From positions 1 through 64,000 of the forward strand of contig JAKJFO010000002.1 in NCBI GenBank assembly GCA_022704885.1: a DNA stretch of 64,000 nucleotides, written 5' to 3'. The position numbers were made by a program, and so were the translations under genes. The notes beneath the pieces are model-generated. The model was given only the letters and a program-made list of their open reading frames with translations, was not told the DNA's origin and searched no databases. Source of the stretch: Candidatus Rifleibacteriota bacterium. GTDB lineage: Bacteria; Riflebacteria; Ozemobacteria; Ozemobacterales; Ozemobacteraceae. Of the stretch, positions 1 to 23,370 are shown in pieces (position 1 is the first letter of the stretch; every line of letters starts with the position of its first letter).

Positions 1-15
1 GAGGTCTATACCATT

Positions 16-663
16 ATGAGAATGATAGAAATTCTTAGGGACATCTGGGGGACAGCAAAAACAGTTCTCCCCTTAGCCATGATCTTAGTGATACTCCAGG
101 TCATTGTCCTCAAGAAGCCCATTAAGAATGAACTGGGCTGCAAAGACATCAGCCGCAGTCTGTTGAAGCGCGGCATCAAACTCGATCATCTCGATACCGG
201 CGGCAACAGCGCTTTGCATTACGCAGTCGCCAGTTGCGACAACGACATCGTTGCCGAAATGATCGACAAAGGCGCCGATATTTTTGCCGTGAACAATTTT
301 GCCCGCGGCATGATGCATGTTGCCGCCGAGAATTCCAACGAAGTCATTTTTCCGACTCTGATTGCCAATGGTTGTGATGTAAACCAGGAAGACATCAGAG
401 GCAATACCGCTTTGCATCTGGCTGCAAAGGCAAATAATTTCACCATCCTGCAGGCTCTGCTCACCAACGGAGCCGATTTTGCCGTCAGAAACATGCAGGG
501 AAAAGTCGCAGCCGATCTCGCCACAAGTCATGAAGCAGCCCAGCTGCTGCGCAACCGCTTCGAAATCGAGGGTTCGAACCCGGCCAAACGCGCACTTCCA
601 GCTGAGGTACGCACTATGACGACGCCAACCCGAGACCTGGTCGAGCAGAGAGATGCCAGATAA
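16..663 (+). CDS. Membrane-anchored ankyrin-repeat protein
   Basis: Unknown function; ankyrin repeats normally bind partner proteins. One hydrophobic segment lies at about residues 16-34 and is followed by about three to four ankyrin repeats (residues 55-170) with the hallmark GNSALHYAV and GNTALHLAA turns. A GAGG at the very start of the window precedes the ATG. The 3' end overlaps the start of the first large cyclase by 11 bases, so the two are translationally coupled. It heads the five-gene cyclase operon, so a scaffold or regulatory role for the cyclases is plausible but only inferred. Upstream sequence is outside the window, so more genes may precede it. Confidence 0.85.
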   Translation: MRMIEILRDIWGTAKTVLPLAMILVILQVIVLKKPIKNELGCKDISRSLLKRGIKLDHLDTGGNSALHYAVASCDNDIVAEMIDKGADIFAVNNFARGMMHVAAENSNEVIFPTLIANGCDVNQEDIRGNTALHLAAKANNFTILQALLTNGADFAVRNMQGKVAADLATSHEAAQLLRNRFEIEGSNPAKRALPAEVRTMTTPTRDLVEQRDAR

Positions 664-3646
664 CAGCTCTGAACGCCAGTTCAGAAAGCTGGCGCCCAGC
701 ATCCCCGGCATTGGCTATCTTCTATTATTCTGGCTTCTGGCGGTTGGACTGCCTGCTCTGGCGATTCTTACCCTGCTCAACAGCAGCGAACTCAGTCGAA
801 AAGAACAACTGAAGAACTCGGTCAGTGACAGAATGCTCGACGACATGAACAGTCTACTGCGCGAGTTCAGCGCCGAATCATACTTCAGCGCCCGCATCAC
901 ACAGGCCGAAACGGCAGCCGGACTGCCACCGCGCCATTCCAACCTGACTTCGCAGATAGTTTCTGTTCGCGAAATTCACCAGCAGCTGCACAGAGAATTT
1001 TCTAAAATCAGAGGTCTGCGGCTGATCACCATCATCTCTGGCGATCAGAACTTTTCTGACATACTGATAGATCATGACAACGAAAACTTCGCCGATTACC
1101 CCAAACCCGGGCAATGGGCTGCCAGAACCATACTGAAGGCAATAACCGCACGCGCGCAGAACCAGTCGACCGATCAGACGCTTTCGGCCGTCGAGCTGCG
1201 CATGTTGAGAAATTTCAACGACTCGATATTCGGATCCTACTTCAACCCAGTTGACAGCGACGAAGACTTCAACAGTGGGTTCATCACCAGAAACAACGGC
1301 AGCAATCTGCATACAGCCCGCAGAGTTGTGGTTAACAGCGAGAAAGAGGTGGTATTTTCTTATCTCGCCATATTTGTCGAGACGGCACAGATATTCACAG
1401 AAGCCTGTCAGGAAATTACCGGTCGGAACAGGTTTTCTGAATTCGCTATGCGCTTCGTTTTAAAGCCGGCAACGGCTTTTCCTTTTCTCATCGAGAACAG
1501 AGATTCAAGCTTGAGTCTCTATGCCCCGGTCAGCTTCGGAAAACTCAACGCTGGAGCGCATGCACACGGCAATCTGATCGACCGACTGATCGCTCAGGGA
1601 AAATTGACTGAAAAACCCGCACAGTATCCACATCTCGTGCTGTCTTCGCGACCTTTGCAGGAATTGATCGGTAAACGTCATGCTCACGCAAGAATGCTGG
1701 TATTTCTGGTTTTATGTGCTTCTCTGCTTGTATTGAAGCATTTTCAGCAGACAGGCATGCTCAGTCTAAGAATAAGAGTGCGCCTGTTCGCAGCAGTCTT
1801 TCTGGCCACCATTCTGCCGGCAACCGCTTTCATGTTTTCAGCCTATCGCCACAACCAGCAGCAGACAGAGTTGCGTCAGACAGCTCTCATCGAAGAAATG
1901 AAAACCAGACTCAAGCTCTTCGAACTCAACATCAGGTCTCAGGACGAGATACTCAATCAGAAAGCTTTCGCACTTGTCGACGAGCTCAACCGCAATATCG
2001 ACATGCCAGACGAAGTTGTCAGCGAAATCCTCACCCGACATGCAAAAAGCAATTTTGCCGGAGCCATGTTGATCAGAAACAATGGCCTGAGCCTCGAGAT
2101 CGTTGATCGAAGTTCGACTACACTGCGCAACAACCCTGATCAACTTACGTTTTCGCGAGATATCTATTTTGCCTCGATGATAAAATTTTTCGACTATCTC
2201 GGCCTCATACTCGAAAATTTCTACAGCAAACTCGAAAGCACTCCGAATGGCCGAAAACTAAAGGCTCTGTCGGCCATTTTCACGTCAGAAGACGTCGAAA
2301 ATTTCTGCAGTTACGAAGGCTCAGCCCAGACGACGAAAAAAGATTCGGCAACGCTTCGCTTCAGCAACTTCAAGATCATTCCGCATGGTAATAAAAAGGG
2401 AGCGGGCGCGGCAGTTCTGCTGCTTGTGCAGGATATTCGGAAAGTTATCGACCAGATTCTCGCCGATCAGCTGGCAAAATGGTCATTCTATGACCAGCCA
2501 ACCAGCGAAGGCAGAATCCGCAACATGCTGGCGGGCACCTTCGACCTCGAAGCCAGTTCACTCGACCTCTCGCGTATCTGGCCGGCAGGAACGAAACTCG
2601 ACAGCAGCCAGAAAAGCCTGATTGCAGAAATCGCCAACGGCAAAGCCGAAGTCAGCCGTATAATCAGCGAATCAGATGCGCCACCGGTTGCAATGGTCGC
2701 CGCCAAGATCGGCGGTTATCCTCTCATTGCCATCTCCAGGTGCACAATGCAGAAACTCAACGCCGACAACAGCCATACCGACCTGTTTCTGCTGGCGAGT
2801 TTTGCCTGGCTCATGATCATTCTGATGATTCTGGTCAGTCTGCTCGACGAACTGTTCGCCACCCCGATCAACCGGCTTCTGACGGCTGTCAGATTGACAG
2901 AAAAAGGTTACGAGGCAGAAATAATAAATGATTCTGACAATGAACTGGCGCAACTGACCGGTGAATTCAACCTGATGAACCGTAATCTCAAAGAACGTGA
3001 GCGCCTGGCCAGATTCATCTCGCATGAGGCGGCCCAGACAATATCCCGCGAAAGCAGGGAATTGTCTGACATACCTCCCTGCCGCGAAGAACGCAGCATA
3101 CTGTTCATACATATCCGCGGTTTCAGCGAGTTCAGCGAAAGACTCAGCCCGGAACAGCTGATCGACCTGCTCAATCGGTTTTTTCCCTTTGCTGAAAAAC
3201 TGATCAATGAAGCTGGAGGACAGATCGACAAATATATTGCCGATGCGATAATGGCTGTTTTTTCAGGCGGCGAGAACGAGCTTACAGCGGCAGTCAGAGC
3301 GTGCATGGCGGCACAGGCGATTCGACGCGACATTTCTCGGCTGAATCATACGCTGGCGGCCGAAGGACTGCCAGGCATCGCTCTGGGCGCCGGCATCGCC
3401 AGCGGTGAAGTGATTTCGGGCAGAATCGGCGCAACCAGCGGCCGGCGCGACTATACCGTGATTGGCGACCGGGTGAACCTTGCCGCCCGTCTCGAAACCA
3501 TGTCGCATTTTTCCGATCAGACAAGAATTCTGGTCGATGAACAGACGAAACTGGCGGCGTCGGCCGCATTTTCCTTTAAAAACCACGGAGAACTGCCGGT
3601 AAAAGGCAAAACTGCGCTGGTGCAGGTATATGAGCTGCATGATTGA
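653..3646 (+). CDS. Transmembrane class III nucleotide cyclase, C2-like half (first metal Asp replaced by His)
   Basis: A 997-residue receptor cyclase. Predicted membrane segments lie at about 21-42, 347-361, 378-397 and 710-731, giving two extracytoplasmic regions of about 300 residues each, then a HAMP-like linker and a class III cyclase domain from about 810. The domain keeps the purine-site Lys860, second metal ligand Asp864, Thr935 (class IIIb type), and the transition-state Asn942 and Arg946 in VNLAAR. The first metal ligand, Asp in the usual F-x-D-I-x-x-F motif, is His820 (FIHIRGF). Alone it should be a poor enzyme. The next gene has the opposite set of residues, so the pair is inferred to form a heterodimer like animal C1/C2. 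Translation is coupled on both sides by overlaps. Adenylate rather than guanylate specificity is not proven. Confidence 0.9.
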   Translation: MPDNSSERQFRKLAPSIPGIGYLLLFWLLAVGLPALAILTLLNSSELSRKEQLKNSVSDRMLDDMNSLLREFSAESYFSARITQAETAAGLPPRHSNLTSQIVSVREIHQQLHREFSKIRGLRLITIISGDQNFSDILIDHDNENFADYPKPGQWAARTILKAITARAQNQSTDQTLSAVELRMLRNFNDSIFGSYFNPVDSDEDFNSGFITRNNGSNLHTARRVVVNSEKEVVFSYLAIFVETAQIFTEACQEITGRNRFSEFAMRFVLKPATAFPFLIENRDSSLSLYAPVSFGKLNAGAHAHGNLIDRLIAQGKLTEKPAQYPHLVLSSRPLQELIGKRHAHARMLVFLVLCASLLVLKHFQQTGMLSLRIRVRLFAAVFLATILPATAFMFSAYRHNQQQTELRQTALIEEMKTRLKLFELNIRSQDEILNQKAFALVDELNRNIDMPDEVVSEILTRHAKSNFAGAMLIRNNGLSLEIVDRSSTTLRNNPDQLTFSRDIYFASMIKFFDYLGLILENFYSKLESTPNGRKLKALSAIFTSEDVENFCSYEGSAQTTKKDSATLRFSNFKIIPHGNKKGAGAAVLLLVQDIRKVIDQILADQLAKWSFYDQPTSEGRIRNMLAGTFDLEASSLDLSRIWPAGTKLDSSQKSLIAEIANGKAEVSRIISESDAPPVAMVAAKIGGYPLIAISRCTMQKLNADNSHTDLFLLASFAWLMIILMILVSLLDELFATPINRLLTAVRLTEKGYEAEIINDSDNELAQLTGEFNLMNRNLKERERLARFISHEAAQTISRESRELSDIPPCREERSILFIHIRGFSEFSERLSPEQLIDLLNRFFPFAEKLINEAGGQIDKYIADAIMAVFSGGENELTAAVRACMAAQAIRRDISRLNHTLAAEGLPGIALGAGIASGEVISGRIGATSGRRDYTVIGDRVNLAARLETMSHFSDQTRILVDEQTKLAASAAFSFKNHGELPVKGKTALVQVYELHD

Positions 3647-6638
3647 CAACACTGACAAAAAAGCGGCGGTTAAACTGAAAATAGAACGCAGCCTGTTTCT
3701 CAGACTGGCGCCAGTTCTGCTCTGGGTTCTGGCGGTGTTTCTGCCAATGCTGATCGGCAGCCGCGTTTACTTTATATCGTTACAGAAACGACAACAGAAT
3801 CTGGCCGCGCAATCTCGCCAGCAGCTGATGGCGCGAGCCCAGCAGCTGACCTACCGGTTACAGCCAAAAACCATTGCCAGAAGTTTTTTCAATATAAACG
3901 ATTACGAATGGCATTACGTGAATTACCGTTATCACTCGGTGCGCAATGTCTTTGAGGGTCTACCGGTCGTCAAGGCACTGCCAGATTTTGAAAAGGACAT
4001 TGACGCCGAAGTCCTCAGATTCAGTCGATATCTGCATGATAATTACCGTTTCGAACCTGAGTTTTTGTTCGCTCTCGACGAGAACCAGGCGAGTTGCAGC
4101 ATGCTTGTCTCGAAACGGCTCAGCATGCCCGCCAATGACATGGCCGCACTCAGAAGAGAGCTGCCCGAAATCTGTAAAGGGCTGAACTATAAAGACACCT
4201 ATGGCCAGCAGACACCTCGCGAATTGCGGCATTACAGAGAATTTGCAACATTCAATCAGATGGTGGCCGTAGCTCACCCCTTCAATACCAGACCATGGCG
4301 CCTCGGCAGCCGATTTTCGGCTAAGCTCAACCAGAACCTGTATCTGGTAACCATAAGCTATCCGGTCATAAACAATCGTCAAAACTATCTGTTGCTGGGC
4401 TTTACCATCGACAACATCAGACAAAATGTCATACTCGATCACCTGTGCGCCTCGCTCAGCGATGAATTCATCAGCCTTCAGGCTGGCCATTCGAACGCGC
4501 GAAATATTCCTTCATTCATCGATCATGAAGAAAAGGTCGAACTGTTGACCAGATTGCCACTCGCTTTCGAACTGCTTTTCAGAACTGCTGCCGCCGGAAA
4601 ATCTGATAAAAAGACCGTAATTAAGCTGACTTCGAGCACAAAAGCTTTCAATCGCCAGTTCAAGCGGGAAGTCGATGCCGCCAACATCCTGCTGCTTGTC
4701 GTCGGCAGCCTGAGCCTGCTGGCAGCTGCCGGCCTGGCAATGGGCAGGTTCCGACTCACCGCAGGACTTACCAGAATAATCACTGCAAGCTTTGTCGCCT
4801 GCATGGCTTTTCCGCTGACGGCAATCTTCTGGCAGGGGCTGCTGCAGCACCATTCAAGCAGCGAAAGCGACATTCAAAACACCATGCACAAGATTTCCCG
4901 GCAGATCAGAGAACTCGATCAAAGTTTTCTACTGCAGAGTTACCGGCGTATGCTGCTGTTCAAATTCGTCGCCGACAGTTTTGAGCGGCTACCCATGCCT
5001 GCGTGGGGACGCATGGTCAGGCTGATGTTTTCAGACCAGGCAGAAGACCGTTTTTCAGATCAGTTCAAGACTTGTTATCTTTATGATTCACTCGATCGCG
5101 AATTTTACCGCGGCCAGGTGAAAACCGAGAATCAGGCGATAGGCGATATGTCACGCCTGTTCGTAGGTGTTTCGCGCAAGCTGATGATGCAGATTGGTGC
5201 AATGTCAGGATTGAGCGAAAAGGATCGTAGCAGAATTGGCCAGATTGCTGATTTTGCCTCAGGCCTGATGGAACAACTGCTGCGGCCAAAACTGTTGAAC
5301 CAGATTTATAAAACGCAGGGCGAGTTGTTTATGAGCGATTTCATGGCACGACGTTCACTTCTCTGCAGCCATTTTTTGCGATCAGCCGGGAAAATAACCG
5401 GATATCTGATGTTTGTGACCGAGAACTTTCTGCTGATGGAACGCATAAGTGAAATGCAAAGGCAGAACTCTTTTCCGACACGGCTGACCGTCGATGATTA
5501 CCTGGTCGATCTGGTGTTTTACCCGATCGATGATTATGCCGAGCGTGGCCTCAATGATCGAATCATATACGAAGACGACAATCTCACGCAGCGAACCGAC
5601 AATCTCAAGGAAATTGCCAATGCCTTGTATGCAGGCGCTGATTTTAACCAGATAAACAATCTTCATCTGCAAAACCCGCATCTGATAGTTACCGACAGAA
5701 TCTTCAACAACAATGTATTCGTTTTTGCCATGGCGAAGCCGCTGCGAAGCCCCTACCGCATGCCGTGGTCGCTGCTGGCATTGTCGCTTATCGCCATCAT
5801 AAGTTGTCTGGCTCTGGCCGGCGGCGTAGCAAAAATGCTTCTGCTGCAGATTCCACCATTTCTGGTGGCCATGCGCGAGATCGAAAACGATCGCTATGAC
5901 TGGCAACTCAACCTGTCAGGCTCTGACGAGTTTTCTGAGCTGGCAGGCTCGATCAATTCAATGCGGATAAGCCTGCTCGAGCGCCGCAAGATGATGCAGC
6001 TGGTATCAGCCAGTGCGATCGAAGCCGCCCGCTCAGACCTTCAGCAGCAGGGCGCTGCTCGACGCCGCGATGCTGCTATTCTGTTCTGTGATATCAGAAG
6101 TTTTACTACTATCAGCGAAAGCCGGTCGGCCGAAGAAGTGGTCGATATGCTCAACAGCTATTTCTCATACATGTGCCCGATCATCGAAGAACATGGCGGC
6201 TTCGTCGACAAGCTCATCGGCGACGCTATTCAGGCAGTATTTCTCGGAGATCCCGCAACAGCTGTATTGGCAGCAGCAAGAGCAGCTTTGCAGATGCGCG
6301 CAGGCCTCGACGACTTCAACCGACAACGCAGAAACAACGGGCTGTTTACCATCGACAACGGTATCGGCATAGCCGCCGGAACAGTAGTAACCGGTCTGGT
6401 AGGTTCGCAGACCGGCAAACTTGATGCCGCCCTGCTCGGCAATGTGTTGCACAAGGCCCAGACTCTCGAAGCCAAAAGCAAACATGCTGCCGACACAAGA
6501 ATTCTGATCGACCGCGAAAGCTGGCATAGTGGCGGCGAATTGTTGATTGTCAAAACAATCCAGGATCCTTCGGCAATCAGTTCAGAAACAGAACGGAATC
6601 TGTTCGAACTTATTGCAATCAAGGCTGCTGCAGAATGA
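3630..6638 (+). CDS. Transmembrane class III nucleotide cyclase, C1-like half (catalytic Asn and Arg lost)
   Basis: Same layout as the preceding gene: N-terminal membrane helix, a long extracytoplasmic region, a double helix near the middle, a second extracytoplasmic region, a fourth helix, a HAMP-like linker and a C-terminal cyclase domain. Both metal ligands are present (Asp821 in FCDIRSF and Asp865 in LIGDAI), as is Lys861. Where active cyclases have V-N-L-A-A-R, this protein has L-H-K-A-Q-T, so Asn is His941 and Arg is Thr945, and the purine-site Thr is Ala934. This is the complement of the upstream partner, which it overlaps by 17 bases. The start could instead be the in-frame ATG at 3639; the first ATG is chosen because an AGG-containing stretch lies just upstream of it. 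Confidence 0.9.
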   Translation: MSCMIDNTDKKAAVKLKIERSLFLRLAPVLLWVLAVFLPMLIGSRVYFISLQKRQQNLAAQSRQQLMARAQQLTYRLQPKTIARSFFNINDYEWHYVNYRYHSVRNVFEGLPVVKALPDFEKDIDAEVLRFSRYLHDNYRFEPEFLFALDENQASCSMLVSKRLSMPANDMAALRRELPEICKGLNYKDTYGQQTPRELRHYREFATFNQMVAVAHPFNTRPWRLGSRFSAKLNQNLYLVTISYPVINNRQNYLLLGFTIDNIRQNVILDHLCASLSDEFISLQAGHSNARNIPSFIDHEEKVELLTRLPLAFELLFRTAAAGKSDKKTVIKLTSSTKAFNRQFKREVDAANILLLVVGSLSLLAAAGLAMGRFRLTAGLTRIITASFVACMAFPLTAIFWQGLLQHHSSSESDIQNTMHKISRQIRELDQSFLLQSYRRMLLFKFVADSFERLPMPAWGRMVRLMFSDQAEDRFSDQFKTCYLYDSLDREFYRGQVKTENQAIGDMSRLFVGVSRKLMMQIGAMSGLSEKDRSRIGQIADFASGLMEQLLRPKLLNQIYKTQGELFMSDFMARRSLLCSHFLRSAGKITGYLMFVTENFLLMERISEMQRQNSFPTRLTVDDYLVDLVFYPIDDYAERGLNDRIIYEDDNLTQRTDNLKEIANALYAGADFNQINNLHLQNPHLIVTDRIFNNNVFVFAMAKPLRSPYRMPWSLLALSLIAIISCLALAGGVAKMLLLQIPPFLVAMREIENDRYDWQLNLSGSDEFSELAGSINSMRISLLERRKMMQLVSASAIEAARSDLQQQGAARRRDAAILFCDIRSFTTISESRSAEEVVDMLNSYFSYMCPIIEEHGGFVDKLIGDAIQAVFLGDPATAVLAAARAALQMRAGLDDFNRQRRNNGLFTIDNGIGIAAGTVVTGLVGSQTGKLDAALLGNVLHKAQTLEAKSKHAADTRILIDRESWHSGGELLIVKTIQDPSAISSETERNLFELIAIKAAAE

Positions 6639-6648
6639 TACGGTATTC

Positions 6649-9579
6649 ATGAAAACACTTAAACCAGCCAGATTTTCCAACATCAAACTGCTGGTATTCT
6701 GGCTGTTCGTTTTCGTATTCCCGGTAGTAACGGCAAAAGTCCTTATCAACACTCATGAAGCACAGCAGCTCCGCAGCAATGAGACAGGTCGACAGGCTGA
6801 ACTGCGTTATGAAATGGATCAGTTCATCGCAGACCTCGACCTTGGCTATCAGATCGAAAAGCAGATAAAGTCGGCTGAGCGCATTCTGAGCGGCAAACTT
6901 GCCGGCAGCAGCGTGAATCCACAGACAGTATGCCGACTGGTCCGGGAAAGTTTTGCAGAAACAGGCATCTTCATGCCGGTTCTTATCGCTGCTTATCTGC
7001 CTGAAAACGGAAAGACCGAAGTTCTGCTTTCTGATCCCGGCTATGTAAACCCGGGCCGAAAATCTCTGGAAATAATCATGTCATATATCAATGACAAAAC
7101 CCATGGCAGAATAGACGAGAGCAGGGACAGAATGTACAAACTGGTCTGCCGGGCAGCATTTGGCGATTATCTGCAGCCTGGAGAACAGGATGGACTTCTG
7201 ACCAGCGGTTTTATGAGCAGAGGAAAGGGTGATCGCACCTTTATCTACCATAATCATGTTGCAGCCAATTCTGAAAAAAAGCAGCGCATCCTGCTGCTGA
7301 CAGTTTTCGCCGAGTCCAGAACCGGAGTGCGCGAGCTGCTGCAGCTTGCTTTGAAAGCAGGTAAAAACTCGTCGACGGCAAGAAGTTACGCCCTGCTTCA
7401 GACTGCAGTCAGCCGTGACTTCTTCTACGACCGCCACAATCGTATGTATTACGCGGTTCCTGTGCCGCCGGCAGCTTTAAGAACCGGTTCACATCAACGC
7501 AAAGACTGGTATTCCAGTGCCATAAATTCGCAACAGGCACTGCATAAGCCAGGTCGTCTGCCTTATGCCGTGGTTTCGCACAAACCGCAACTCAATCATC
7601 ACGACAAAGTTTCAATCCGCGACCTCGCCAACCTGCTGTTGCTTGCCATATTTTTTACCGGCACCGCACTAGTGCGTCAGATCGTTACCGACCGCTTTGC
7701 CAGAGCGCCGGTGAATCGCAAGTTTGCCATGTGCATCCTGCTTTCTACAGCCCTGCCCTTTGCCATCATGGTTGTTGCAACTTACCGCTATTTCGCCCAT
7801 TTCAGCCAGACCACTATTCAGAACCATTTAAGCAACATGAGCAATGATCTCTATCTCATGGAATCAAACATTCACAATCATGAACAGCGCGAAAAGTTCA
7901 AACGGGCTTCCTTCATTAACCGGCTGAAAGCCAGTTCACATCTGGAAGCGGCCGAGCTCAGGCAAATTCTCGACCAGGAACTCGGGCGACTGTTCATGGG
8001 ATACATAATGTTTCGTAACGACGCCACTCTGGTAGAACGCCTGCCCGAAACGGGTGAAGTAAGCGAAGATGATCGCGGCAAGCTTATGTTATGGAGAGAC
8101 CTGACACTGGCTCAAGCATATGACGTATTTGTCAACGCCGGCGTACTTGGCAGAGATTTTGACCGGAGAATTCTCCAGGTTCCCGATTTCAAGCGCTGGC
8201 GGGCATTCAGCGTACACTACCTTGATATCGACCGCAGCTCATTCTGCAGCCAGGACGGAGAATATTTTCCTGCCAAAATTTCTGAGCGGCAATACGTCGA
8301 GTTCTCAACCCATAACCTGTTTCGTGAAGGCAGTCCAAATCCGGTATGGGCGATTCTTGCCCTGCTGACCGACTCGCGAGCATCCTGCGAAAGATACCTC
8401 AACGAACTGCCGGGCAACACCTTCATCAGCTTATCGGATGATATGGTCACACATACCGCAATATATTGCCTGAATTCTCTGAGTCAGATCGACCGGCAAC
8501 TGTCATGGCCGATGAGCGCCCTTGCCGATGACCAGATGTTGCAGGCAGTGGCCAACCTGACTGCCGGAAAAACAGAAACAGCCTGGTACAGCTTCGACCA
8601 GAGCGGCGCCGCCAGACTTTTCTGCGCCAGAGCCGTTTCTGACACACCTTTTATCATAGCATCGCACAGCACTCTACACTCTCCAGCTATAATCAAAGCT
8701 TTTCTGCCGATTCTTCTACTGATTACCGTTCTTTATCTGCTCGCGCTCATCAAACTTCTGAGCATGGTGCTGGCCGAGAGTTTCATCAGTCCGGTAAATA
8801 TGATGATGCAGGGGTTGTCGGCGCTTGATCATGGCTGTTACCCGGCGATTGTCTGCCATTCTTCAAATGAGCTTGGCAGTCTCATCGATGACTTCAACGG
8901 TATGGTTCTGGGCATGAGACAGCGACGCATTCTCGAGAGGTTCATCTCAGATGAGGTTTCACAGAGCGTTGCCAGCGTTGAGTCCAACGACGATCAGGCA
9001 GCCGGCACTCTGGTTCATCGCGCCATCATGTTCATTCACATTCGCAGCTTTGAAAAAATCTGTGAAAGCCTTGAGCCTGAGGCGGTAATTACCCTGCTCA
9101 ACCTCTACTTCAGCACCCTTGAACCGGCAATAATGTCATGCGGCGGCCAGATCGACAAATACATCGGCGACGCCATAATGGTAAGCTTTTCGGCTGAACG
9201 CTGCAATGGCCGACCAGAATATGCTGCAGCTGTGACAGCCCTGCTCTGTCGGCGAAAACTGCCTGAACTCGGTCACCGGCTTGCCGGTTGTAACCTCCCG
9301 CACATCGTTATTGGCACAGGAATCGCCGCCGGCCCGGTAATTCTTGGCAAAATCGGTGCCAAAAATGGCCGCAAAGATTTCACTCTTATCGGCGACGCAG
9401 TGAATCTTGCGGCCAGGCTTGAGTCAGCATCGCACCATGACACCAACCCGCACATACTGGTGTCCGAGATAATCAAAGAAGCAGCTGCACCACTGCATTT
9501 CATCTCTTCCGGCAGGCTTGAGATCAAAGGCAAGAAAGTCGCGGTCGAAGTTTTCGAACTTGAGGATCAGGGTATATGA
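6649..9579 (+). CDS. Transmembrane class III nucleotide cyclase, C2-like half, second pair
   Basis: Receptor cyclase of 976 residues with the same four-helix, two-sensor architecture as its operon neighbours. The cyclase domain has His797 (FIHIRSF) in place of the first metal Asp, but keeps Lys837, Asp841, Thr912, Asn919 and Arg923. The reading frame is open from 6547, but the ATG at 6649, ten bases after the previous stop codon, is preferred: it puts the first membrane helix about 12 residues from the N-terminus, as in the sister proteins, and avoids a 92-base overlap. It ends in a 4-base ATGA overlap with the next gene, its inferred dimer partner. Confidence 0.88.
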   Translation: MKTLKPARFSNIKLLVFWLFVFVFPVVTAKVLINTHEAQQLRSNETGRQAELRYEMDQFIADLDLGYQIEKQIKSAERILSGKLAGSSVNPQTVCRLVRESFAETGIFMPVLIAAYLPENGKTEVLLSDPGYVNPGRKSLEIIMSYINDKTHGRIDESRDRMYKLVCRAAFGDYLQPGEQDGLLTSGFMSRGKGDRTFIYHNHVAANSEKKQRILLLTVFAESRTGVRELLQLALKAGKNSSTARSYALLQTAVSRDFFYDRHNRMYYAVPVPPAALRTGSHQRKDWYSSAINSQQALHKPGRLPYAVVSHKPQLNHHDKVSIRDLANLLLLAIFFTGTALVRQIVTDRFARAPVNRKFAMCILLSTALPFAIMVVATYRYFAHFSQTTIQNHLSNMSNDLYLMESNIHNHEQREKFKRASFINRLKASSHLEAAELRQILDQELGRLFMGYIMFRNDATLVERLPETGEVSEDDRGKLMLWRDLTLAQAYDVFVNAGVLGRDFDRRILQVPDFKRWRAFSVHYLDIDRSSFCSQDGEYFPAKISERQYVEFSTHNLFREGSPNPVWAILALLTDSRASCERYLNELPGNTFISLSDDMVTHTAIYCLNSLSQIDRQLSWPMSALADDQMLQAVANLTAGKTETAWYSFDQSGAARLFCARAVSDTPFIIASHSTLHSPAIIKAFLPILLLITVLYLLALIKLLSMVLAESFISPVNMMMQGLSALDHGCYPAIVCHSSNELGSLIDDFNGMVLGMRQRRILERFISDEVSQSVASVESNDDQAAGTLVHRAIMFIHIRSFEKICESLEPEAVITLLNLYFSTLEPAIMSCGGQIDKYIGDAIMVSFSAERCNGRPEYAAAVTALLCRRKLPELGHRLAGCNLPHIVIGTGIAAGPVILGKIGAKNGRKDFTLIGDAVNLAARLESASHHDTNPHILVSEIIKEAAAPLHFISSGRLEIKGKKVAVEVFELEDQGI

Positions 9580-12569
9580 AGCGCGTTACGATAAGCTCAA
9601 GTCCGGGCCTGATAAAAGGATTATCACCGCTGCTGCTCTGGATAACGGTCATTCTGCTACCGGCATTCGCTGCCAGATTGATTTTCAACTCGGCCACTAC
9701 CATGGAAAACGATCTGTATCATGCGCGTATGCAGCAGAAACTGCGCATAGAACTACAAAAGTACGACTCGACACTACAGCCTCAAATTTTTATCAGCACA
9801 GCTTTTGAAAGAAGCACCAGCGAAAAACTCATGCAGGAATGGGATACAGGCAAGGACATCAGAGATAGTTACCTGGCCCATAAAATTCTCGGCCGACTGC
9901 CAGGTTTTCTCGCCGCAGCGAACTCGCCTGTCGACAAGTTCATGCAATTCAGCAGAGAGATTGCCGGACTGCCTCCGCAGGCGGTTTTTGTTATCGCCGA
10001 AAGCGAGCAGAACTGTCACTGGCATTTGGAAAAGCCTTTCAGCCAGTCACAAAACCATGGCAATCTGACAAAATTGCTTGCAGCAGTATGGCAGTTTCTG
10101 GAACAACGCAACAGCTTCGCCGGACAACCGCTCATTCCCAAAAAATATGAAGATCTGGCCGCCTTTCCCGAACTCAACCAGGCCATCGGTCTTTTTCAGC
10201 CAATCAAGTGCTCATATGGTGCAATAATCGAACGTTATTCCCATAAGGCCAGAGATATCACCTATGTCGCCATTCTACCCGTTCCTGCGGCAGTGACCGG
10301 CAAAGAAAACCGCTACATCATCGCCGTCTACTGCCGCAACGCATTTTCCCCGCAATTCATGCTGCAGAAAACCACCAGAGGCTTTTCCGACGGCAGTTTT
10401 ACCCACAAAGCAATTTTGACACCGGAACGCGTATTGCCATCATTCTGCGAAGACAAGCGGCAGATGACACTGACCGGACAGCTGCCGCACGAGTTTACCA
10501 GACTGCTCGCAGCAAGGAAACTGCCAGAGGGTCAGCAGCCGGCAATAAGTATCAGCTGCCCGGTCAAATCACCAGATGCCGACCATAAGGACATTGCTGT
10601 CAATCTGTTTCTAAAAATCACGGCAATTTTATCATTTATGTTCACCGTTGCCGTCATGCTCGGCAGAATCGGCAATTCCGGCACTCTTCACAAACTGGTC
10701 AGAGCATGCTTTCTAACCGGCATACTCTTACCCCTTACCGCTTCAATATGGCTCGGAATCTGCCATGACAACTCAAGAAAGCAGCTCGAAACCGAACTGA
10801 TGCTTGATTTCATGCAGCAGCAACTGGCTCTGACCGAGCAGAAAATTCTTCTGCAGATTTCCCGCAGCATACTTTTCCAGAATATTTTTATTGAACGCAC
10901 GGGCAGACTTTCGCCCCAGAAACTGCGCAAAATCAATGAAATCACGAAATATGTCAGCTACATGCCGAAAGATAAAAGCAGACTCGAAGTCTGTGAACAC
11001 ATGGGAAGACGCTTCTACAGTTATTTCATGCTGCACCCCGAAGTCGATGACAATATAATCGGCATGGGGGCAGGCCAGGGCCAGGTAACGGAGTCCCTTT
11101 ACCCTGTTTTTATAAGTCCGGCACAGGAAATTCTGTTCCAGCTTGGTGCCTGGAATATCTCAAGCGAGAAATCCAGACAGCTGTTGCAGAGATCTCAAAT
11201 CACCCAGGGGCTGATCGATGTTGCCATTGATCGCCGGATGCTGTCGCGCATATTTGCCGAAGAACGGATACCGGTATTCAACAGCATGACGACAGGCAGA
11301 GAATACATTACCTGTGGTTTCTGGAAAGACAGCCAGAATACCAAAACCGGCATTCTCTTCATGCAGTCGAATCGTGAGAACTGGAAAAGCGACATTCTCG
11401 AACTGATCAAGGAGAATATGCTGCAGACAGTATATTACCGGGACGGTTTTGAACTGACGGTACGGGTATTTTTCCCGAATGCTTATCGGCAGAGGGTTCT
11501 CGACAGCGACACTCACAATGTAGCAGCCAGGTTTTCACCTGACAACAGGACTCTGTGGGAAGCCGCCCAGGCCATGTTTCTGGTTTCGCAGGTTTCACGT
11601 ATCAACAACCTTGACTCAGAGCAGCCACATCTGCTTTGCGGCCAGGCTATTCTAAGTGGCGATAGTTACCTGATGGCTCATGCGGTGCCGGTTCCCGACC
11701 GCTATCAGGCCAGCGGCATGGCTGGTTACGCGCTTCTAATGCTGCTGGCCATTCTTAGCAGCTATTATCTGGCAGGCGGTGTGGCATGGCTGCTTTTGCG
11801 CTCGATTCCAGCCTTTCAGGCTTCGATGCATGAAATGGCACAACAGAATTATCTCTGGCAGATCGAGCTGAACAGCGGCGACGAATTCGACCGGCTGGCA
11901 CACACCTTCAATCATCTTGGCCGACAGCTTTACGAAAGGCAACAGATAAGCCAGCTCGTTTCTCGTAACGTTCTCGACGCGATAAATTCAGGTGACGACC
12001 TGATGCTGCGCCCCGGCGGCAGCAGGGTGAACGCCTCGATACTCTTTGCCGATATCCGCAATTTCACAACTCTCACCGAAAAATACCCGCCACAGCAGAT
12101 TGTATCGATGCTCAACGATTATTTTTCGCTGATGGCAGAACAAATCGAAAGCCGCGGCGGCATCATTGACAAATTGGTTGGTGACGCGATTCAGGCGGTT
12201 TTTTACCATCATGAATGCGAAAACGGCGCAAAAGCTGCGGTAACCGCCGCTCTGGCGATGCGCGCCGGCCTTGCCGATTGCAACCGGCAGCGAAGTAAAA
12301 GCGGTCTGTTCACTATCGACAACGGGGTCGGCATCTGCACCGGCAGCGTTATCTGCGGGCGCGTAGGCTCAGACCAGGGCAAGCTCGATGCGACGCTGGT
12401 CGGCAGTCTGGTCGGTCAGGCCGCTCAGCTCGAAAGTATGAGCAAGGCCGGAACCAGCAGCAAAGTGTTTATCGACGGCAGAACCGCCGCCATGCTTGGG
12501 CCGGATCTTGTCTGTCAGCCGGTAGCAGCCGATAATCGGGTGTTCGAAATTCTGGAGCTGAATGACTGA
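9576..12569 (+). CDS. Transmembrane class III nucleotide cyclase, C1-like half, second pair
   Basis: A 997-residue protein with the same two-sensor membrane layout. Both metal-binding aspartates are kept (Asp826 in FADIRNF, Asp870 in LVGDAI), with Lys866 and Thr940. The Asn and Arg needed to stabilise the transition state are Gly947 and Gln951 (L-V-G-Q-A-A-Q instead of V-N-L-A-A-R). It complements the protein encoded directly upstream, to which it is coupled by an ATGA overlap. It is the last gene of the operon; only six bases separate its stop from the convergent cyclase gene, and no terminator hairpin is visible in the gap. Confidence 0.9.
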   Translation: MKRVTISSSPGLIKGLSPLLLWITVILLPAFAARLIFNSATTMENDLYHARMQQKLRIELQKYDSTLQPQIFISTAFERSTSEKLMQEWDTGKDIRDSYLAHKILGRLPGFLAAANSPVDKFMQFSREIAGLPPQAVFVIAESEQNCHWHLEKPFSQSQNHGNLTKLLAAVWQFLEQRNSFAGQPLIPKKYEDLAAFPELNQAIGLFQPIKCSYGAIIERYSHKARDITYVAILPVPAAVTGKENRYIIAVYCRNAFSPQFMLQKTTRGFSDGSFTHKAILTPERVLPSFCEDKRQMTLTGQLPHEFTRLLAARKLPEGQQPAISISCPVKSPDADHKDIAVNLFLKITAILSFMFTVAVMLGRIGNSGTLHKLVRACFLTGILLPLTASIWLGICHDNSRKQLETELMLDFMQQQLALTEQKILLQISRSILFQNIFIERTGRLSPQKLRKINEITKYVSYMPKDKSRLEVCEHMGRRFYSYFMLHPEVDDNIIGMGAGQGQVTESLYPVFISPAQEILFQLGAWNISSEKSRQLLQRSQITQGLIDVAIDRRMLSRIFAEERIPVFNSMTTGREYITCGFWKDSQNTKTGILFMQSNRENWKSDILELIKENMLQTVYYRDGFELTVRVFFPNAYRQRVLDSDTHNVAARFSPDNRTLWEAAQAMFLVSQVSRINNLDSEQPHLLCGQAILSGDSYLMAHAVPVPDRYQASGMAGYALLMLLAILSSYYLAGGVAWLLLRSIPAFQASMHEMAQQNYLWQIELNSGDEFDRLAHTFNHLGRQLYERQQISQLVSRNVLDAINSGDDLMLRPGGSRVNASILFADIRNFTTLTEKYPPQQIVSMLNDYFSLMAEQIESRGGIIDKLVGDAIQAVFYHHECENGAKAAVTAALAMRAGLADCNRQRSKSGLFTIDNGVGICTGSVICGRVGSDQGKLDATLVGSLVGQAAQLESMSKAGTSSKVFIDGRTAAMLGPDLVCQPVAADNRVFEILELND

Positions 12570-12575
12570 ATGGAG

Positions 12576-14669
12576 CTACTTGCTCTGAACCCTGAAGACG
12601 CCGTCCCAGTCAGGGCCAGGTGGGCTTGCGTGCAGTTCGCGGCAGCGGCTGAGATACATTTCGGCAGCCGGATCTTCCTGCAGAATTTCGAGCAGCTTCT
12701 GAAATTTCTCGTAAGATTCCCGCCATTCGCGATTTAGATAACTTCGCAGCGCATCTTCAGACAGGGCAGCGACTTCCAGCTGATTTTCAGCATCGGCCGA
12801 CTCTCGTGAACCCAGCAGCTGATAAATCTTTACGCTGCCATGGCGCCCTTTTACAGCAACGATATCGAGCGGTCGGAAAATGAATTCCTCGCCGGCAGCT
12901 TTGGCAGTCGACTGGCTGACGATTATTTCGGTTTCGTACAGCTTGTTGAGGCCTTCAAGACGACTTGCCAGATTGACGTTGTCACCGATGGCCGTGTAAT
13001 TGAAGCGATCTGAAGAACCAAAGTTGCCGACCAGCGAAACTCCAGTATTTATACCGATTCTCGTGGCAAACACCTCTTTTCCTTCATTGCGCCATTTTTC
13101 GTTAAGCTCACCCGTGGCCCTGATTATCTCGACTGCGGCGCGGCAGGCATGGCGAGCCTGATCAGAACTGGCCATCGAAGCACCCCAGAAGGCCATTACC
13201 GAATCGCCGATATATTTGTCGATCGTGCCGCCATGGCGGTGAATCAGGGCAGCAATGCAGTCGAAATATTGTGAAAGCTGCTCCATCAGCTGCGATGGCG
13301 ACACTTTTTCGGCAATCGAAGAAAAATTCGAAATATCGGTAAACATCAGGGTAATCTCTTCGGCATGCGCTTCGAGACGCGCTTCATCATGCCGGTTAAC
13401 CAGCCCCAGAACGATCTCTGAAGGCACATACTTCTTGAAGGCTCCCAGCGCCTTTTTCATCGAGTTCATGGCCTCGCTCATTGCATGAATTTCTGAAATT
13501 GGCGAGTGAATTTCAATCTCACCCTCAAAATCAAGCTTCTGAATCTTTTCGGCTTCGTGCGTTATGCGCTTGATCGGGTTGGTCAACTCTCGCGCCAGTG
13601 TCGAAGTCAGAAATCCGCCAATGATCAGCAACCAGAACGAAAAAAGCAGCGTCGTCTCATGAATTCGCGCGATCGGCCCGATAAAATCCTCTTCCGGCAC
13701 AATTATGCCAAGAATCCAGTCACGACCGAAATTATCAGGAAACGGCCGGAAAGAGGCGATGTAATTATCGCCACCATGTTCGTAAGTAAAACGCAGCTTC
13801 TTTTCTTCGATGAACTTTTCGAGCGCCGACTTTATCCAGCCGGTTTTGATACTCTGTTGCAAAGGTGAGCGCGGCGCTCTGACGTTATCGACATCGAGTC
13901 CCGATTTTTCTGGATAAGCCAGAATATTGCCCTCGCTGTCTGCAATGAACGCCAGACCTGAATCGCCAATTTTGAGACTTTTCAGGAACTCAGCCAGCTC
14001 ACCCAGTCGAAAATCGATGCCGACTGCGCCGGCATAGGTTCCATCAGGCCCATAAACCGGATGTGCGCAGGTAATACCCGGCACCTGATCGGTAAACAGA
14101 CGGTATTCACGGCTCCAGACGGCATGCCCTTCGGCCTTGGCCAAAACATACCATGGCCGCTCACGTGGGTCAAAATTGAGAATCGAGCTGCTGCGCGTCG
14201 CAATTATCTGCCAGTCATGATCACGGTCGATCTCGAGCACTCCGGCCGGCTCTCCGGTTCTTGAGACGATTCTGGTCGAATAGGTGCCGTCGGTCAGACG
14301 CCGCGCCATCACGAAGTTTCCACCTTCGTCGCCAAGATATACGGCTGAGAACTGCGGGTAGGCGTCGAGAGCCTCGAGACTGATCGTCTCGATCATTTCG
14401 GGGGAATTGGCAAACGTATCGCCGCGCTCGATCATGCGCCGCAGCAGATGTCCAGTCTTGCGGGCCGGCTCGAGATGGTTGCTGGTCTGCCTGATGATCG
14501 TTTCTGAGATCTGGTATAACAGCTCATCAGAAGACTGCAGCATGATTTCGGAATTGCTGCGGTAACCATAAATGACGATACCGGCCACAATCAACGAAAA
14601 CAGGGCAAGAAACGAGAAAAAAACGACCACCTGCAGGCGATAGGTTCGGTAGAGAGCTCGTTTCATCAT
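12576..14669 (-). CDS. Receptor class III adenylate/guanylate cyclase with dCache sensor, HAMP and complete active site
   Basis: Makes a cyclic nucleotide, probably cAMP, in response to an extracytoplasmic signal. A membrane helix lies at about 12-34, then a periplasmic region resembling a double Cache domain (30-345, with the RPWY-containing small-molecule-sensor pattern), a second helix near 350, a HAMP linker and a cyclase domain. All catalytic residues are present: Asp445, Lys485, Asp489, Asn566 and Arg570. A helical tail of TPR type ends in PPGPDWDGV plus a short basic end. The same ending is found in the GAF cyclase at 34069. Unlike the six giant cyclases it should be active as a homodimer. 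It is convergent with the cyclase operon and divergent from hutU. Confidence 0.93.
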   Translation of the reverse strand: MMKRALYRTYRLQVVVFFSFLALFSLIVAGIVIYGYRSNSEIMLQSSDELLYQISETIIRQTSNHLEPARKTGHLLRRMIERGDTFANSPEMIETISLEALDAYPQFSAVYLGDEGGNFVMARRLTDGTYSTRIVSRTGEPAGVLEIDRDHDWQIIATRSSSILNFDPRERPWYVLAKAEGHAVWSREYRLFTDQVPGITCAHPVYGPDGTYAGAVGIDFRLGELAEFLKSLKIGDSGLAFIADSEGNILAYPEKSGLDVDNVRAPRSPLQQSIKTGWIKSALEKFIEEKKLRFTYEHGGDNYIASFRPFPDNFGRDWILGIIVPEEDFIGPIARIHETTLLFSFWLLIIGGFLTSTLARELTNPIKRITHEAEKIQKLDFEGEIEIHSPISEIHAMSEAMNSMKKALGAFKKYVPSEIVLGLVNRHDEARLEAHAEEITLMFTDISNFSSIAEKVSPSQLMEQLSQYFDCIAALIHRHGGTIDKYIGDSVMAFWGASMASSDQARHACRAAVEIIRATGELNEKWRNEGKEVFATRIGINTGVSLVGNFGSSDRFNYTAIGDNVNLASRLEGLNKLYETEIIVSQSTAKAAGEEFIFRPLDIVAVKGRHGSVKIYQLLGSRESADAENQLEVAALSEDALRSYLNREWRESYEKFQKLLEILQEDPAAEMYLSRCRELHASPPGPDWDGVFRVQSK

Positions 14670-20319: not shown

Positions 20320-23300
20320 TCAAGCCTGCAGGCTGAATACTTCGACTTCCTGTTTCTTGCCGCGAATCTTTTCGACGGCAACCGGCTTCACCTTGTAACC
20401 TGCGCCCAGACAGTCTCTGATTGCACCCGAGATGATAATCGGCATTGTCTCGCTGGTTGCCAGCGAACACATGCGCGCGGCCACATTGACCGGATCACCG
20501 ATGACCGTATTATCGATGCGCACTTCAGGAGTACCGATTATACCGGAAATGACGCGCCCTGAGTTGATGCCAAAAACCGGCTTGATATCACGGTCACCCT
20601 TGAAATCGCTCAAGATTCTTCGGGCCAGCTTGATGGCAGCGACAGCAGCATTTTTTTTGCCGTGCTGCTCATGCGAAAACACTATAAGAAGCTTTTCTCC
20701 GATAACCTTGTCGACCTCACCGCCATATTCTTCGGCATAACGGAAAAATCTTTCGAGACTGAACTCGAGTTTCCTCTGCACCTGCTGTTCGCTGGCTTCG
20801 GCAGCAAACTCGGTAAAGCCATCGAAATCTGCGAAAAGAATGGTAAATTTTGCCTCACTGCCCTGGCGCGCCTTTTCAAAGAGTTCCGGGTTGCTGGCCA
20901 GACGGCGCACAGATTCAGAGACAAAGCTGCCGAGAGCATTGCGTTCGCGCAAGCCTTTGACCATGCGATTGAATGCGCGTGAAATCGAGCCGAATTCATC
21001 CTCACGGCTGTCCTTGAGTTTCACATCATAATTGCCGGCTTCGATACAATTGAGACCCCAAAGCAGATGTTCAAGCGGTCCGGTAAACGATCTGCTGATA
21101 TTCACTGCTGCCAGCACCGCAAATATCAGAAAAATCACCATACCCGACATGAAAATCACGTTTCGCCAGAATTCGATTCGGTCGAGATGTGAAGTATCCT
21201 GACGGCCGCCAAGCGTATAAAGGCCGAGATATCTGCCGGGCAGCGCCTGATAAATTGCCTGATCATCACCAGTGCCGACATGTCGCAACAGACGCCGGTT
21301 ACGCGAAGCACTTCTGATCAGGGCAGACAAACGTGGCGATTCTGTCGTCTGTGAGAAGAAAGATTCGGCCCGGAAGCCACTGAAAGTCTGAACCAGAACC
21401 GGCGTTGCCATTATCAGAACAGCCGGATCGAGCAGGTCAAGCAACGAGCTGATATTTTTGCGACCATTATTAACGTTGACGATCTCTGAGAAGGCCCGTT
21501 TGAGATATGATTCACCAATCGCGTATTCATCCCAGCCAATTCCGCAGAAATATTCAATCAGGCCATTGATTCGCAACGGAAAAACGGCGAAAAGAGTGGT
21601 GCCGATACTGGTGCGCATGCTGCTGAGACCTTCCAGCCTCGAAAACAGATCATAAAAGCGTTCAGTGCCTACCGAATCGATCAGCTGCGACTTGATTTCG
21701 TCATACATGGCTTTTTCGAGTGCCTCGGCTGAAGCGGTTTTTTTGTGGTCGATAAGGCCGGCAACAAAATCGCTGCGGGGAAAGAACTTCTCGATAGTCT
21801 TGCGATACATGTCGAGCAGCATGAACATCGAGTCATGGCGGGAATCTGCGGTATGCCCGACAACTTCACGCTTGAAACGATCGTAGTAGCGAATAAAACC
21901 ATCTGGCCCCATAACCAATATTGCATTGGCACGTCGTTCTGCATCGCCAGCCGTTTCGAATCCGGTTACAAAAGGAGCAAAAGCGCGTTCAGCAATATTA
22001 AGAACGGCGCCGTCATACTCCTTTACGTTGATTTTTGACTTGTCACCGACGGACTTATCGTAAAGAACCTGCTGAATACGCGCTTTCTTCAACGCACTCA
22101 GCGTCTCAGGATGAGCGAACGAACTCAAAAAACTTCTGAACAGATTGGCGTTATAAAGACGAACTCCCGAATCGAGTCCCGAAAGAGTGTTGTGCAGATT
22201 GCGTTCTATTTTCAGTCTCTCTGTTTCAGAGGCCTCACGCAATATCAGCTGAAAAATCGAACGCCCCATCATGAAAGGCATGAATATCGCAAACATGCTG
22301 GCGAGAATCAGAACCTTACCGACACTCAATCTAAGACCACGACCAAACACAACGGTCTGCACGAATAGAAGCAGAACCAGGCTGGCTCCGGCAAATGCAA
22401 GAATTTTTGTCGACTGTGCCGCATATGACTCGGAAGAGCCATGCAATCTTGCAATGACGACCGGCAGCAGACCTGTTCCGGCAACTTCCCGGCCAACGAC
22501 TACTGTCAGGCTTCCCTGACGGAACACTTCGGTACGCAACCGCCGTGATCTGTCGTTGCGCGAAACAATATCCCGGCAGACCCGGTTGGCGAAAGCTACT
22601 TCAGATTCCCTGGAGGAAGCTTTATCACCGCTGCCGGTCACAAATTTGCCGCTGCGACTGTCAAAGAACATCGTCATCATGCTGTCGGTCTGTTCTGAGT
22701 CGGCAATCGTCCGATAAATATGCAGATCTGGCATTTCATGCAGATCGAGTCGACAGAAAAAATATATCAGCTGATCTGAAGAGACCGCCATCTTATCCCA
22801 GTAAATGCCGATAAGCTCCTCAGCTGACCTGAAAGTAGTCAGACGACCGGCGCGCATCTGCATGAATGCAACCCGATCAACCGGGCAACCAATGTATTCG
22901 CCAAGTAACCGGTCAGCATATTGCCGCAATTCGGCATGCTTCGGGTTGAAAAGCACGTCTTCCTTGTATTTGCGAAATTTCAGGTAATCAACGTAGACGA
23001 ATTTGGCAATAAGCTCCGGGTCAGTTTTTCCACGCAGGTCGGCCGAATCGATGAGAGCGCCGTTTTTGTCGACAAGCGCTATTGCCAGTGAATATTTCGG
23101 CAGGTTTCTGTCGATAAAATCGGGAGACCACGCAAATCGGAAAAACGCCTTGTGGTTCTGCGATATCAGATCACGGAACTGGCTGAAGGTCTTCTGCACA
23201 AGCGTGTGAACATTGGCTTCCTGGCGCACGCGGGTATTGAGATGAATCGCCTGTGACAGCTGATCCATTTCTACACGGTCATTTCGAATCAGCTGGCTGT

Positions 23301-23370
23301 CCAGTCGAAGTGTCAAAACAAGAATGACGATGAAAACCAGCGTAAAAAACAGACTTCTGTGCAGCGTCAT
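20320..23370 (-). CDS. Transmembrane class III nucleotide cyclase, C2-like half, third pair (second metal Asp replaced by Glu)
   Basis: Receptor cyclase of 1016 residues: a membrane helix at 7-24, a large extracytoplasmic region, a double helix near 330-380, a second extracytoplasmic region, a helix near 745-765, a HAMP-like linker and the cyclase domain. It keeps Asp848 (FADFDGF), Lys888, Thr955, Asn962 and Arg966 (VNVAARM), but the second metal ligand is Glu892 (VIGEKL instead of IGDxx). Glu might still bind metal, so residual homodimer activity cannot be excluded. The upstream gene overlaps its start by ATGA and lacks Lys, Asn and Arg, so this protein would supply those residues to a heterodimer. 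Confidence 0.9.
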   Translation of the reverse strand: MTLHRSLFFTLVFIVILVLTLRLDSQLIRNDRVEMDQLSQAIHLNTRVRQEANVHTLVQKTFSQFRDLISQNHKAFFRFAWSPDFIDRNLPKYSLAIALVDKNGALIDSADLRGKTDPELIAKFVYVDYLKFRKYKEDVLFNPKHAELRQYADRLLGEYIGCPVDRVAFMQMRAGRLTTFRSAEELIGIYWDKMAVSSDQLIYFFCRLDLHEMPDLHIYRTIADSEQTDSMMTMFFDSRSGKFVTGSGDKASSRESEVAFANRVCRDIVSRNDRSRRLRTEVFRQGSLTVVVGREVAGTGLLPVVIARLHGSSESYAAQSTKILAFAGASLVLLLFVQTVVFGRGLRLSVGKVLILASMFAIFMPFMMGRSIFQLILREASETERLKIERNLHNTLSGLDSGVRLYNANLFRSFLSSFAHPETLSALKKARIQQVLYDKSVGDKSKINVKEYDGAVLNIAERAFAPFVTGFETAGDAERRANAILVMGPDGFIRYYDRFKREVVGHTADSRHDSMFMLLDMYRKTIEKFFPRSDFVAGLIDHKKTASAEALEKAMYDEIKSQLIDSVGTERFYDLFSRLEGLSSMRTSIGTTLFAVFPLRINGLIEYFCGIGWDEYAIGESYLKRAFSEIVNVNNGRKNISSLLDLLDPAVLIMATPVLVQTFSGFRAESFFSQTTESPRLSALIRSASRNRRLLRHVGTGDDQAIYQALPGRYLGLYTLGGRQDTSHLDRIEFWRNVIFMSGMVIFLIFAVLAAVNISRSFTGPLEHLLWGLNCIEAGNYDVKLKDSREDEFGSISRAFNRMVKGLRERNALGSFVSESVRRLASNPELFEKARQGSEAKFTILFADFDGFTEFAAEASEQQVQRKLEFSLERFFRYAEEYGGEVDKVIGEKLLIVFSHEQHGKKNAAVAAIKLARRILSDFKGDRDIKPVFGINSGRVISGIIGTPEVRIDNTVIGDPVNVAARMCSLATSETMPIIISGAIRDCLGAGYKVKPVAVEKIRGKKQEVEVFSLQA

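Follow-up and report, generated by a model that had tools for sequence, protein, structure and literature searches.

The window, a 64,000-nucleotide (nt) stretch at the start of contig JAKJFO010000002.1 from a Candidatus Rifleibacteriota bacterium, encodes three pairs of neighbouring receptor cyclases, A1–B1, A2–B2 and B3–A3 (Table 1), and we consider it very probable that each of these pairs is an obligate heterodimeric receptor adenylyl cyclase whose two chains share one ATP site. Of the residues that make up this site, the two metal-binding Asps would come from the B chain, and the purine-binding Lys and Asp, together with the catalytic Asn and Arg, from the A chain. For A1 and B1, the original prediction had already proposed such complementary losses, naming His820 at the first metal Asp with Asn942/Arg946 kept in A1, and Asp821/Asp865 kept with His941/Thr945 replacing Asn/Arg in B1; all these residue numbers are right by profile alignment, and our analysis supports the reading and extends it from one pair to whole gene families, with 69 of 71 adjacent pairs and natural one-chain fusions following the same rule.

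The residues were read by alignment to a cyclase profile and are given in the order first metal Asp (D1), Lys, second metal Asp (D2), purine-binding Asp, Asn, Arg. A1 reads HKDDNR (H820, K860, D864, D939, N942, R946), and B1 reads DKDNHT (D821, K861, D865, N938, H941, T945), with the purine-binding Asp lost as well. Substitutes were looked for: the three residues on either side of H820 (FIHIRGF) include no Asp, and no replacement Asn or Arg for H941 and T945 is found in the B1 stretch LLGNVLHKAQTLE. The second pair repeats the pattern, as A2 reads HKDDNR (H797 in place of the metal Asp; K837, D841, D916, N919 and R923 kept) and B2 DKDSGQ (D826 and D870 kept; S944, G947 and Q951 for Asp, Asn and Arg). 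In the third pair, B3 reads DQDDVA (D793, D837 and D910 kept, Q833 at the Lys position, V913 and A917 for Asn and Arg) and A3 DKEDNR (D848 kept, E892 in place of the second metal Asp, then K888, D959, N962 and R966). None of the six pair members has the full set, which is complete (DKDDNR) in the two other cyclases of the window. By alignment, A keeps the purine and Asn/Arg side and B the metal side: H820, K860, D939, N942 and R946 are invariant in the A family (22 rows), and D821, K861 and D865 in the B family (13 rows). These alignments drew on 21 of the 32 A relatives and on 11 of the 14 B relatives, and a separate one on 76 of the 83 fusions. In adenylyl cyclase AC8 (8buz), the best-matching stretch is 938–1160 for A1, corresponding to C2, and 410–530 for B1, corresponding to C1.

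Complementarity in related genomes

With a profile built from 140 database domains, we read all PF00211 domains of three related genomes, G001 (61), G003 (63) and G006 (64), and of the window (8). The classes were set by D1, D2, Asn and Arg, and hence the test lies in the behaviour of neighbours. In that order, the three genomes hold 18, 20 and 18 A-type domains, 18, 20 and 17 B-type domains, 23, 21 and 26 canonical domains, and 2, 2 and 3 domains that have lost both halves; the window holds three A, three B, two canonical and none of the last class. Among adjacent same-strand cyclases less than 3 kb apart, 69 of 71 pairs are complementary A+B (57 of 58 as disjoint pairs), the other two both involving one G006 domain that reads DKDENR, and the only two A or B domains lacking a neighbour lie in frames of fewer than 200 residues. 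The complementarity of neighbours exceeds chance: against the 69 observed, 10,000 within-genome label shuffles gave a mean of 13.2 and a maximum of 26 complementary pairs, and 10,000 shuffles restricted to paired members a mean of 36.2 and a maximum of 53, neither procedure taking account of shared descent. Each of the three genomes contains 17–19 A+B pairs, and two-gene pairs in both orders coexist with one-chain fusions. The genes overlap in 43 of 44 unfused pairs; from such overlaps we infer translational coupling.

It could be argued that A and B are decaying homodimers, each a weakened cyclase, and that their complementarity is the by-product of two separate decay paths. Domains that have lost both halves do exist (seven in the three genomes, three of them read only in part), A1 retains D864, and a His could in principle bind metal. 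Decay would, however, not yield complementary neighbours, and none of the doubly degenerate domains is found in an adjacent pair; D1 of other A domains is Gly, Ala, Ser, Gln, Thr, Lys or Arg, and, as described below, the kept halves are more conserved than their counterparts in canonical enzymes and the rule is maintained in one-chain fusions. We regard this explanation as extremely improbable.

The rule was fixed in writing before a more diverged genome, G005, was read (best A1 match 36% identical, versus 74, 58 and 53% at loci L001–L003); its domain list and one pair (L005) were already known, which makes this reading partly blind. Its 88 domains comprise 31 B, 29 A and 28 canonical ones, and 28 of 30 adjacent pairs are A+B, with a gap limit of 4500 in place of the 4000 fixed beforehand, which made no difference because the largest gap is 3496. 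One G005 locus (G005:C20:11898-18480) carries three receptor cyclases in a B-B-A run that departs from the two-gene rule, and there a single Asn/Arg chain may serve two metal chains. In G034, with 23 domains (14 canonical, one cut off), four of four pairs obey the rule, and G008, with 17 domains (14 canonical, one cut off, two lone short B-like), has no pair. One G034 locus (G034:C9:193840-208961) holds three tandem A-B copies (GKKSNR with DRDIAY, DRDTAY and DRDKAY), which seem to have arisen by duplication of the pair as a unit. A scan of 71 loci from outside the phylum gave 78 domains, of which 77 are canonical and one is truncated at a contig end; this control is weak because the scan motifs included Asn and Arg.

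Five of the six genomes G001–G006 have 61 to 87 PF00211 matches and the sixth has 27; individual bacterial strains are credited with up to 30 class III cyclases in the accessible part of a 2022 perspective (PMC9552081). Three domains that have lost D1, Asn and Arg, G001:C2:425275 (ERDPAT), G003:C175:3073 (ERGGAH) and G006:C36:389595 (ERDGAA), group together in a FastTree tree, and such a retained domain is a possible pseudocyclase regulator.

One-chain fusions

Natural one-chain fusions, in which frames of about 2000 residues carry two cyclase domains, are the strongest evidence for A and B acting together. The metal domain comes first in all 13 fused A+B pairs of the three genomes and in the DKDENR fusion, in 12 of 12 fusions of G005, and in 13 of 13 two-domain frames from 13 further genomes, where 20 of 30 loci were read (excluding genomes already read and second loci of one genome) and the other seven had one domain. 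A protein search with one fusion returned 83 relatives along the family (P0151–P0233, among the best 120 of 150), namely 80 B-A chains, one (P0198) with a DKDENR domain followed by A, and two with a single domain. By chain position, all 81 two-domain fusions have D1 and D2 intact in the first domain and Lys, purine Asp, Asn and Arg intact in the second, and in 80 of the 81 the second domain lacks D1. Of 39 genomes of the phylum, 24 matched the fusion profile, with near-full-length uninterrupted frames in at least 16, and 15, among them G034 and G008, had no match. In a predicted model of one fusion, the two domains appear to pack like C1 and C2 of human AC9, and the domains of the two-gene pairs would pack in the same way. 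In cells with 17 or more pairs, fusion would also fix partner choice.

The same chains bear on the idea of a nucleotide-sensing pseudoenzyme pair, whose A/B dimer would bind ATP at the composite site without cyclising it and signal by conformation. Binding alone is unlikely to hold the full catalytic set that the fusions keep, divided between first and second domain, in every one of the 81 cases, and we therefore think such a role very improbable.

Among the other 37 listed matches of the search, one has two cyclase domains: P0235, a Joint Genome Institute (JGI) metagenome protein of 1357 residues (DKDPNK then NAHDNR), which carries ATPase and TPR Pfam families and is reminiscent of mammalian soluble adenylyl cyclase.

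Conservation, co-inheritance and origin

Mean pairwise identity over the whole domain is similar in A, B and canonical domains (0.32, 0.36 and 0.32; n = 59, 57 and 72), and it diverges by block: 0.32, 0.71 and 0.53 in the metal block, and 0.74, 0.39 and 0.60 in the purine/Asn-Arg block, a contrast that is partly inflated, as four of the compared columns define the classes. Judged by these identities, each chain guards its own half more tightly than an ordinary cyclase does, and the other half has drifted.

Neighbours also appear to be inherited together. Across pairs, A-A and B-B identities are correlated (r 0.84, against at most 0.09 in 2000 null shuffles), and of 171 comparisons between genomes, 123 give concordant best-match partners. 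This bears on a further possibility, a combinatorial pool, in which the chains do form A/B heterodimers, yet also with members of other pairs, to give many composite receptors per cell. With 17–19 pairs per genome at mean identities of only 0.32 (A-A) and 0.39 (B-B), and with best-match partners in conflict in 48 of the 171 comparisons, a pool has some appeal; the co-inheritance of neighbours, the overlapping genes and the one-chain fusions, on the other hand, favour fixed partners, and we consider mixing rather unlikely.

Homology between the A and B families extends over their full length (hhalign probability 100, 908 columns, 19% identity), and organism-named full-length database relatives are Riflebacteria, apart from P0013 and P0090 ('uncultured bacterium'). 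In a tree built without the six catalytic columns, the G006 A/B domains, dead domains, gappy rows and any canonical domain from outside G001 and the window, B forms one side of a branch (support 84 in the Shimodaira–Hasegawa-like approximate likelihood ratio test, SH-aLRT). Independent origins of the split were considered, as A1 and A2 branch apart from the other A types in FastTree, yet one A clade is not rejected: with the clade held together, the log-likelihood is 26 units higher (p-AU, approximately unbiased test, 0.90). One split followed by many duplications is the simplest history, and pair counts are therefore evidence of long maintenance and not of repeated invention. Because the nearest solved sequences are bacterial cyclases (fusion versus CyaB 2.3e-20, versus AC8 4.1e-5), the likeness to the animal enzymes is probably convergence.

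Proposed mechanism and points against it

In the heterodimer that we favour, only the interface between the B Asps and the A Asn/Arg would work as a site, with a degenerate pocket at the other interface. The product would be cyclic AMP (cAMP), because A keeps Lys plus Asp: A domains have Lys in 57 of 57 and Asp in 52 of 57 (Asn in five), and do not have the guanylyl cyclase signature of Glu for Lys and other residues for Asp; the Lys/Asp rule for ATP, with Glu in guanylyl cyclases, is taken from the available part of PMC4215837. Matches to cyclic nucleotide monophosphate (cNMP)-binding domains, 17–20 per genome, are possible targets.

Each of the six pair proteins is about 1000 residues long with a single C-terminal PF00211 domain (bits, at a cut-off of 21.9: A1 69.9, B1 50.8, A2 52.2, B2 63.3, B3 40.0, A3 58.9). 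Simple hydropathy counts four segments in A1, B1 and B2, five in A2 (one falling within the catalytic domain) and B3, and six in A3; one fusion has nine, again with one inside a catalytic domain. This pattern fits two membrane-bound extracytoplasmic segments ahead of the cyclase, for which no Pfam family was found in the six proteins at E 0.01. A structure search with the A1 model (mean predicted local distance difference test, pLDDT, 79.4; predicted template modelling score, pTM, 0.40) matched only the C-terminal part among the 50 matches listed. Since each chain would carry its own two segments, a pair would combine the signals of two different receptors and work only with both chains.

Several points weigh against obligate heterodimers. 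A3 has lost less than A1 and A2, as it keeps D1 and has Glu at D2, and three other A domains likewise retain D1 with D2 to Glu as their sole change. One G006 fusion partner and P0198, both DKDENR, keep the metal Asps, Asn and Arg, with only the purine Asp changed. G005 has its exceptions: besides the B-B-A run, one B domain there neighbours a canonical one, and a single A and a single B stand alone. The 48 conflicts among best-match partners count here as well. The fusion model (pTM 0.64) shows linked domains as a class III dimer and not a preference of A-B over A-A or B-B; in Foldseek comparisons of the whole chain with AC9, AC5 and AC8, root-mean-square deviations are 31–38 Å and query TM-scores 0.27–0.29, and the membrane and receptor parts are therefore unmatched. 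Class III activity is possible without the Asn, as Ma1120 has Ala there according to the accessible text of PMC4215837. A single split may have given rise to every pair, in which case pair counts are not independent events; activity, A-B interaction and expression of the pairs are all predictions.

More tentatively, Riflebacteria could have evolved the architecture of the animal membrane adenylyl cyclases on their own, from one ancient split through some 18 two-receptor pairs per genome, some of them welded into C1-C2 chains, with each pair detecting the coincidence of two receptor signals and active only when both receptors agree, and with the degenerate interface as a forskolin-like ligand pocket; this wider idea stands a reasonable chance, though we would not yet favour it. 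In its available part, the 2022 perspective describes bacterial class III adenylyl cyclases as homodimerising monomers, states that fused dimeric species are unknown in bacteria, and leaves open what would be gained from a fused dimer (PMC9552081). Our literature search, covering mainly abstracts and with most subscription journals outside its coverage, found neither split nor fused receptor cyclases reported from bacteria. Because pairs in both orders and fusions coexist in these genomes, the path from homodimer to split pair to fusion is directly testable, as are whether the second pocket has gained a regulator and how about 18 similar pairs avoid mixing. The pairs would also provide native two-part cyclases that require both parts.

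Comparison with known cyclases

The window pairs share with the mammalian C1/C2 pseudoheterodimers AC1–9 the complementary loss that leaves the metal Asps in one domain and Asn/Arg in the other. Unlike AC1–9, they are bacterial, lie in two separate genes, have bacterial cyclases as nearest solved sequences and, by hydropathy, have about four transmembrane segments per half with large extracytoplasmic segments instead of six-transmembrane bundles. The one-chain, metal-domain-first layout of AC1–9 is absent from the window; relatives have it in their paralogous fusions, in 80 of 83 proteins. Human soluble adenylyl cyclase AC10, a tandem C1-C2 enzyme, is cytosolic, has no receptor part and holds C1 and C2 close together, whereas about 845 residues separate the two cyclase domains of the fusion P0151. 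Soluble guanylyl cyclase has one catalytic site, senses nitric oxide (NO) through haem and uses GTP, whereas the A domains here keep the adenylyl cyclase Lys and Asp/Asn. Like the A/B pairs, its alpha and beta chains form a heterodimer of homologous subunits, as stated in the accessible part of PMC3591389.

The chytrid rhodopsin cyclases NeoR/RGC resemble the predicted A/B pairs in being an obligate heterodimer of membrane receptor cyclases encoded by two genes; there, no residue of known importance for cyclisation is missing from RGC1 or RGC2, so the obligation has another basis (both from the available text of PMC8815786). The bacterial homodimeric class III enzymes CyaB, OaPAC and Rv1625c have the same catalytic domain as the pair members and, unlike the A/B pairs, have two active centres to which both monomers contribute equally (PMC9552081, in the part available). 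For Rv1625c, the accessible part of PMC4821796 reports that two inactive halves, D300A and R376A, restore each other's activity. Another of the closest known proteins is 6yii of P. aeruginosa, whose title describes a class III adenylyl cyclase-like ATP-binding protein.

Gene layout of the window

The window starts with an operon-like plus-strand row of an ankyrin-repeat gene, A1, B1, A2 and B2, in which ankyrin/A1 overlap by 11 nt, A1/B1 by 17 nt and A2/B2 by 4 nt. A1 and B1 open and overlap as the original prediction had placed them. The ATG of A2 lies 10 nt past the B1 stop, and a longer listed A2 frame begins at TTG 6547. The third pair, B3–A3 (26264-20320, minus strand), has the opposite gene order to A1–B1 and A2–B2. 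The arrangement of an ankyrin gene with A1 also occurs in Candidatus Rifleibacterium amylolyticum (L001 8452-10011).

Table 1. Features of the window (ORF, open reading frame; aa, amino acids; positions as in the window).
Feature	Position	Strand	Basis
A1, receptor cyclase, 997 aa, Asn/Arg-keeping (C2-like)	653..3646	+	ORF, PF00211, residue alignment
A1 catalytic domain	3071-3637	+	PF00211 domain reading
A1 codons H820, K860, D864, D939, N942, R946	3110, 3230, 3242, 3467, 3476, 3488	+	
B1, receptor cyclase, 1002 aa, metal-keeping (C1-like)	3630..6638	+	ORF, PF00211, residue alignment
B1 catalytic domain	6045-6611	+	PF00211 domain reading
B1 codons D821, D865, N938, H941, T945	6090, 6222, 6441, 6450, 6462	+	
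Overlap of A1 end and B1 start, 17 nt (8 nt if B1 begins at ATG 3639)	3630..3646	+	Sequence
A2, second Asn/Arg-keeping receptor cyclase	6649..9579	+	ORF, residue alignment
B2, second metal-keeping receptor cyclase, 4-nt overlap with A2	9576..12569	+	ORF, residue alignment
B3, metal-keeping partner, leading gene of its pair	23367..26264	-	ORF, PF00211, residue alignment
A3, Asn/Arg-keeping partner, 4-nt overlap with B3	20320..23370	-	ORF, PF00211, residue alignment
Ankyrin-repeat protein, 5' end beyond the window	1..663	+	ORF, Pfam
Canonical dCache-HAMP-cyclase with all six residues, convergent with the array; used as internal comparator	12576..14669	-	Pfam, residue alignment
Second canonical cyclase, 781 aa, DKDDNR, without cyclase neighbour	34069-36414	-	ORF, residue alignment

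The canonical neighbour at the end of the array is syntenic in G001, G003 and G006, with domain gaps of 271, 304 and 385 bp (292 bp in the window), and the synteny of this homodimer-type cyclase with split pairs is conserved.
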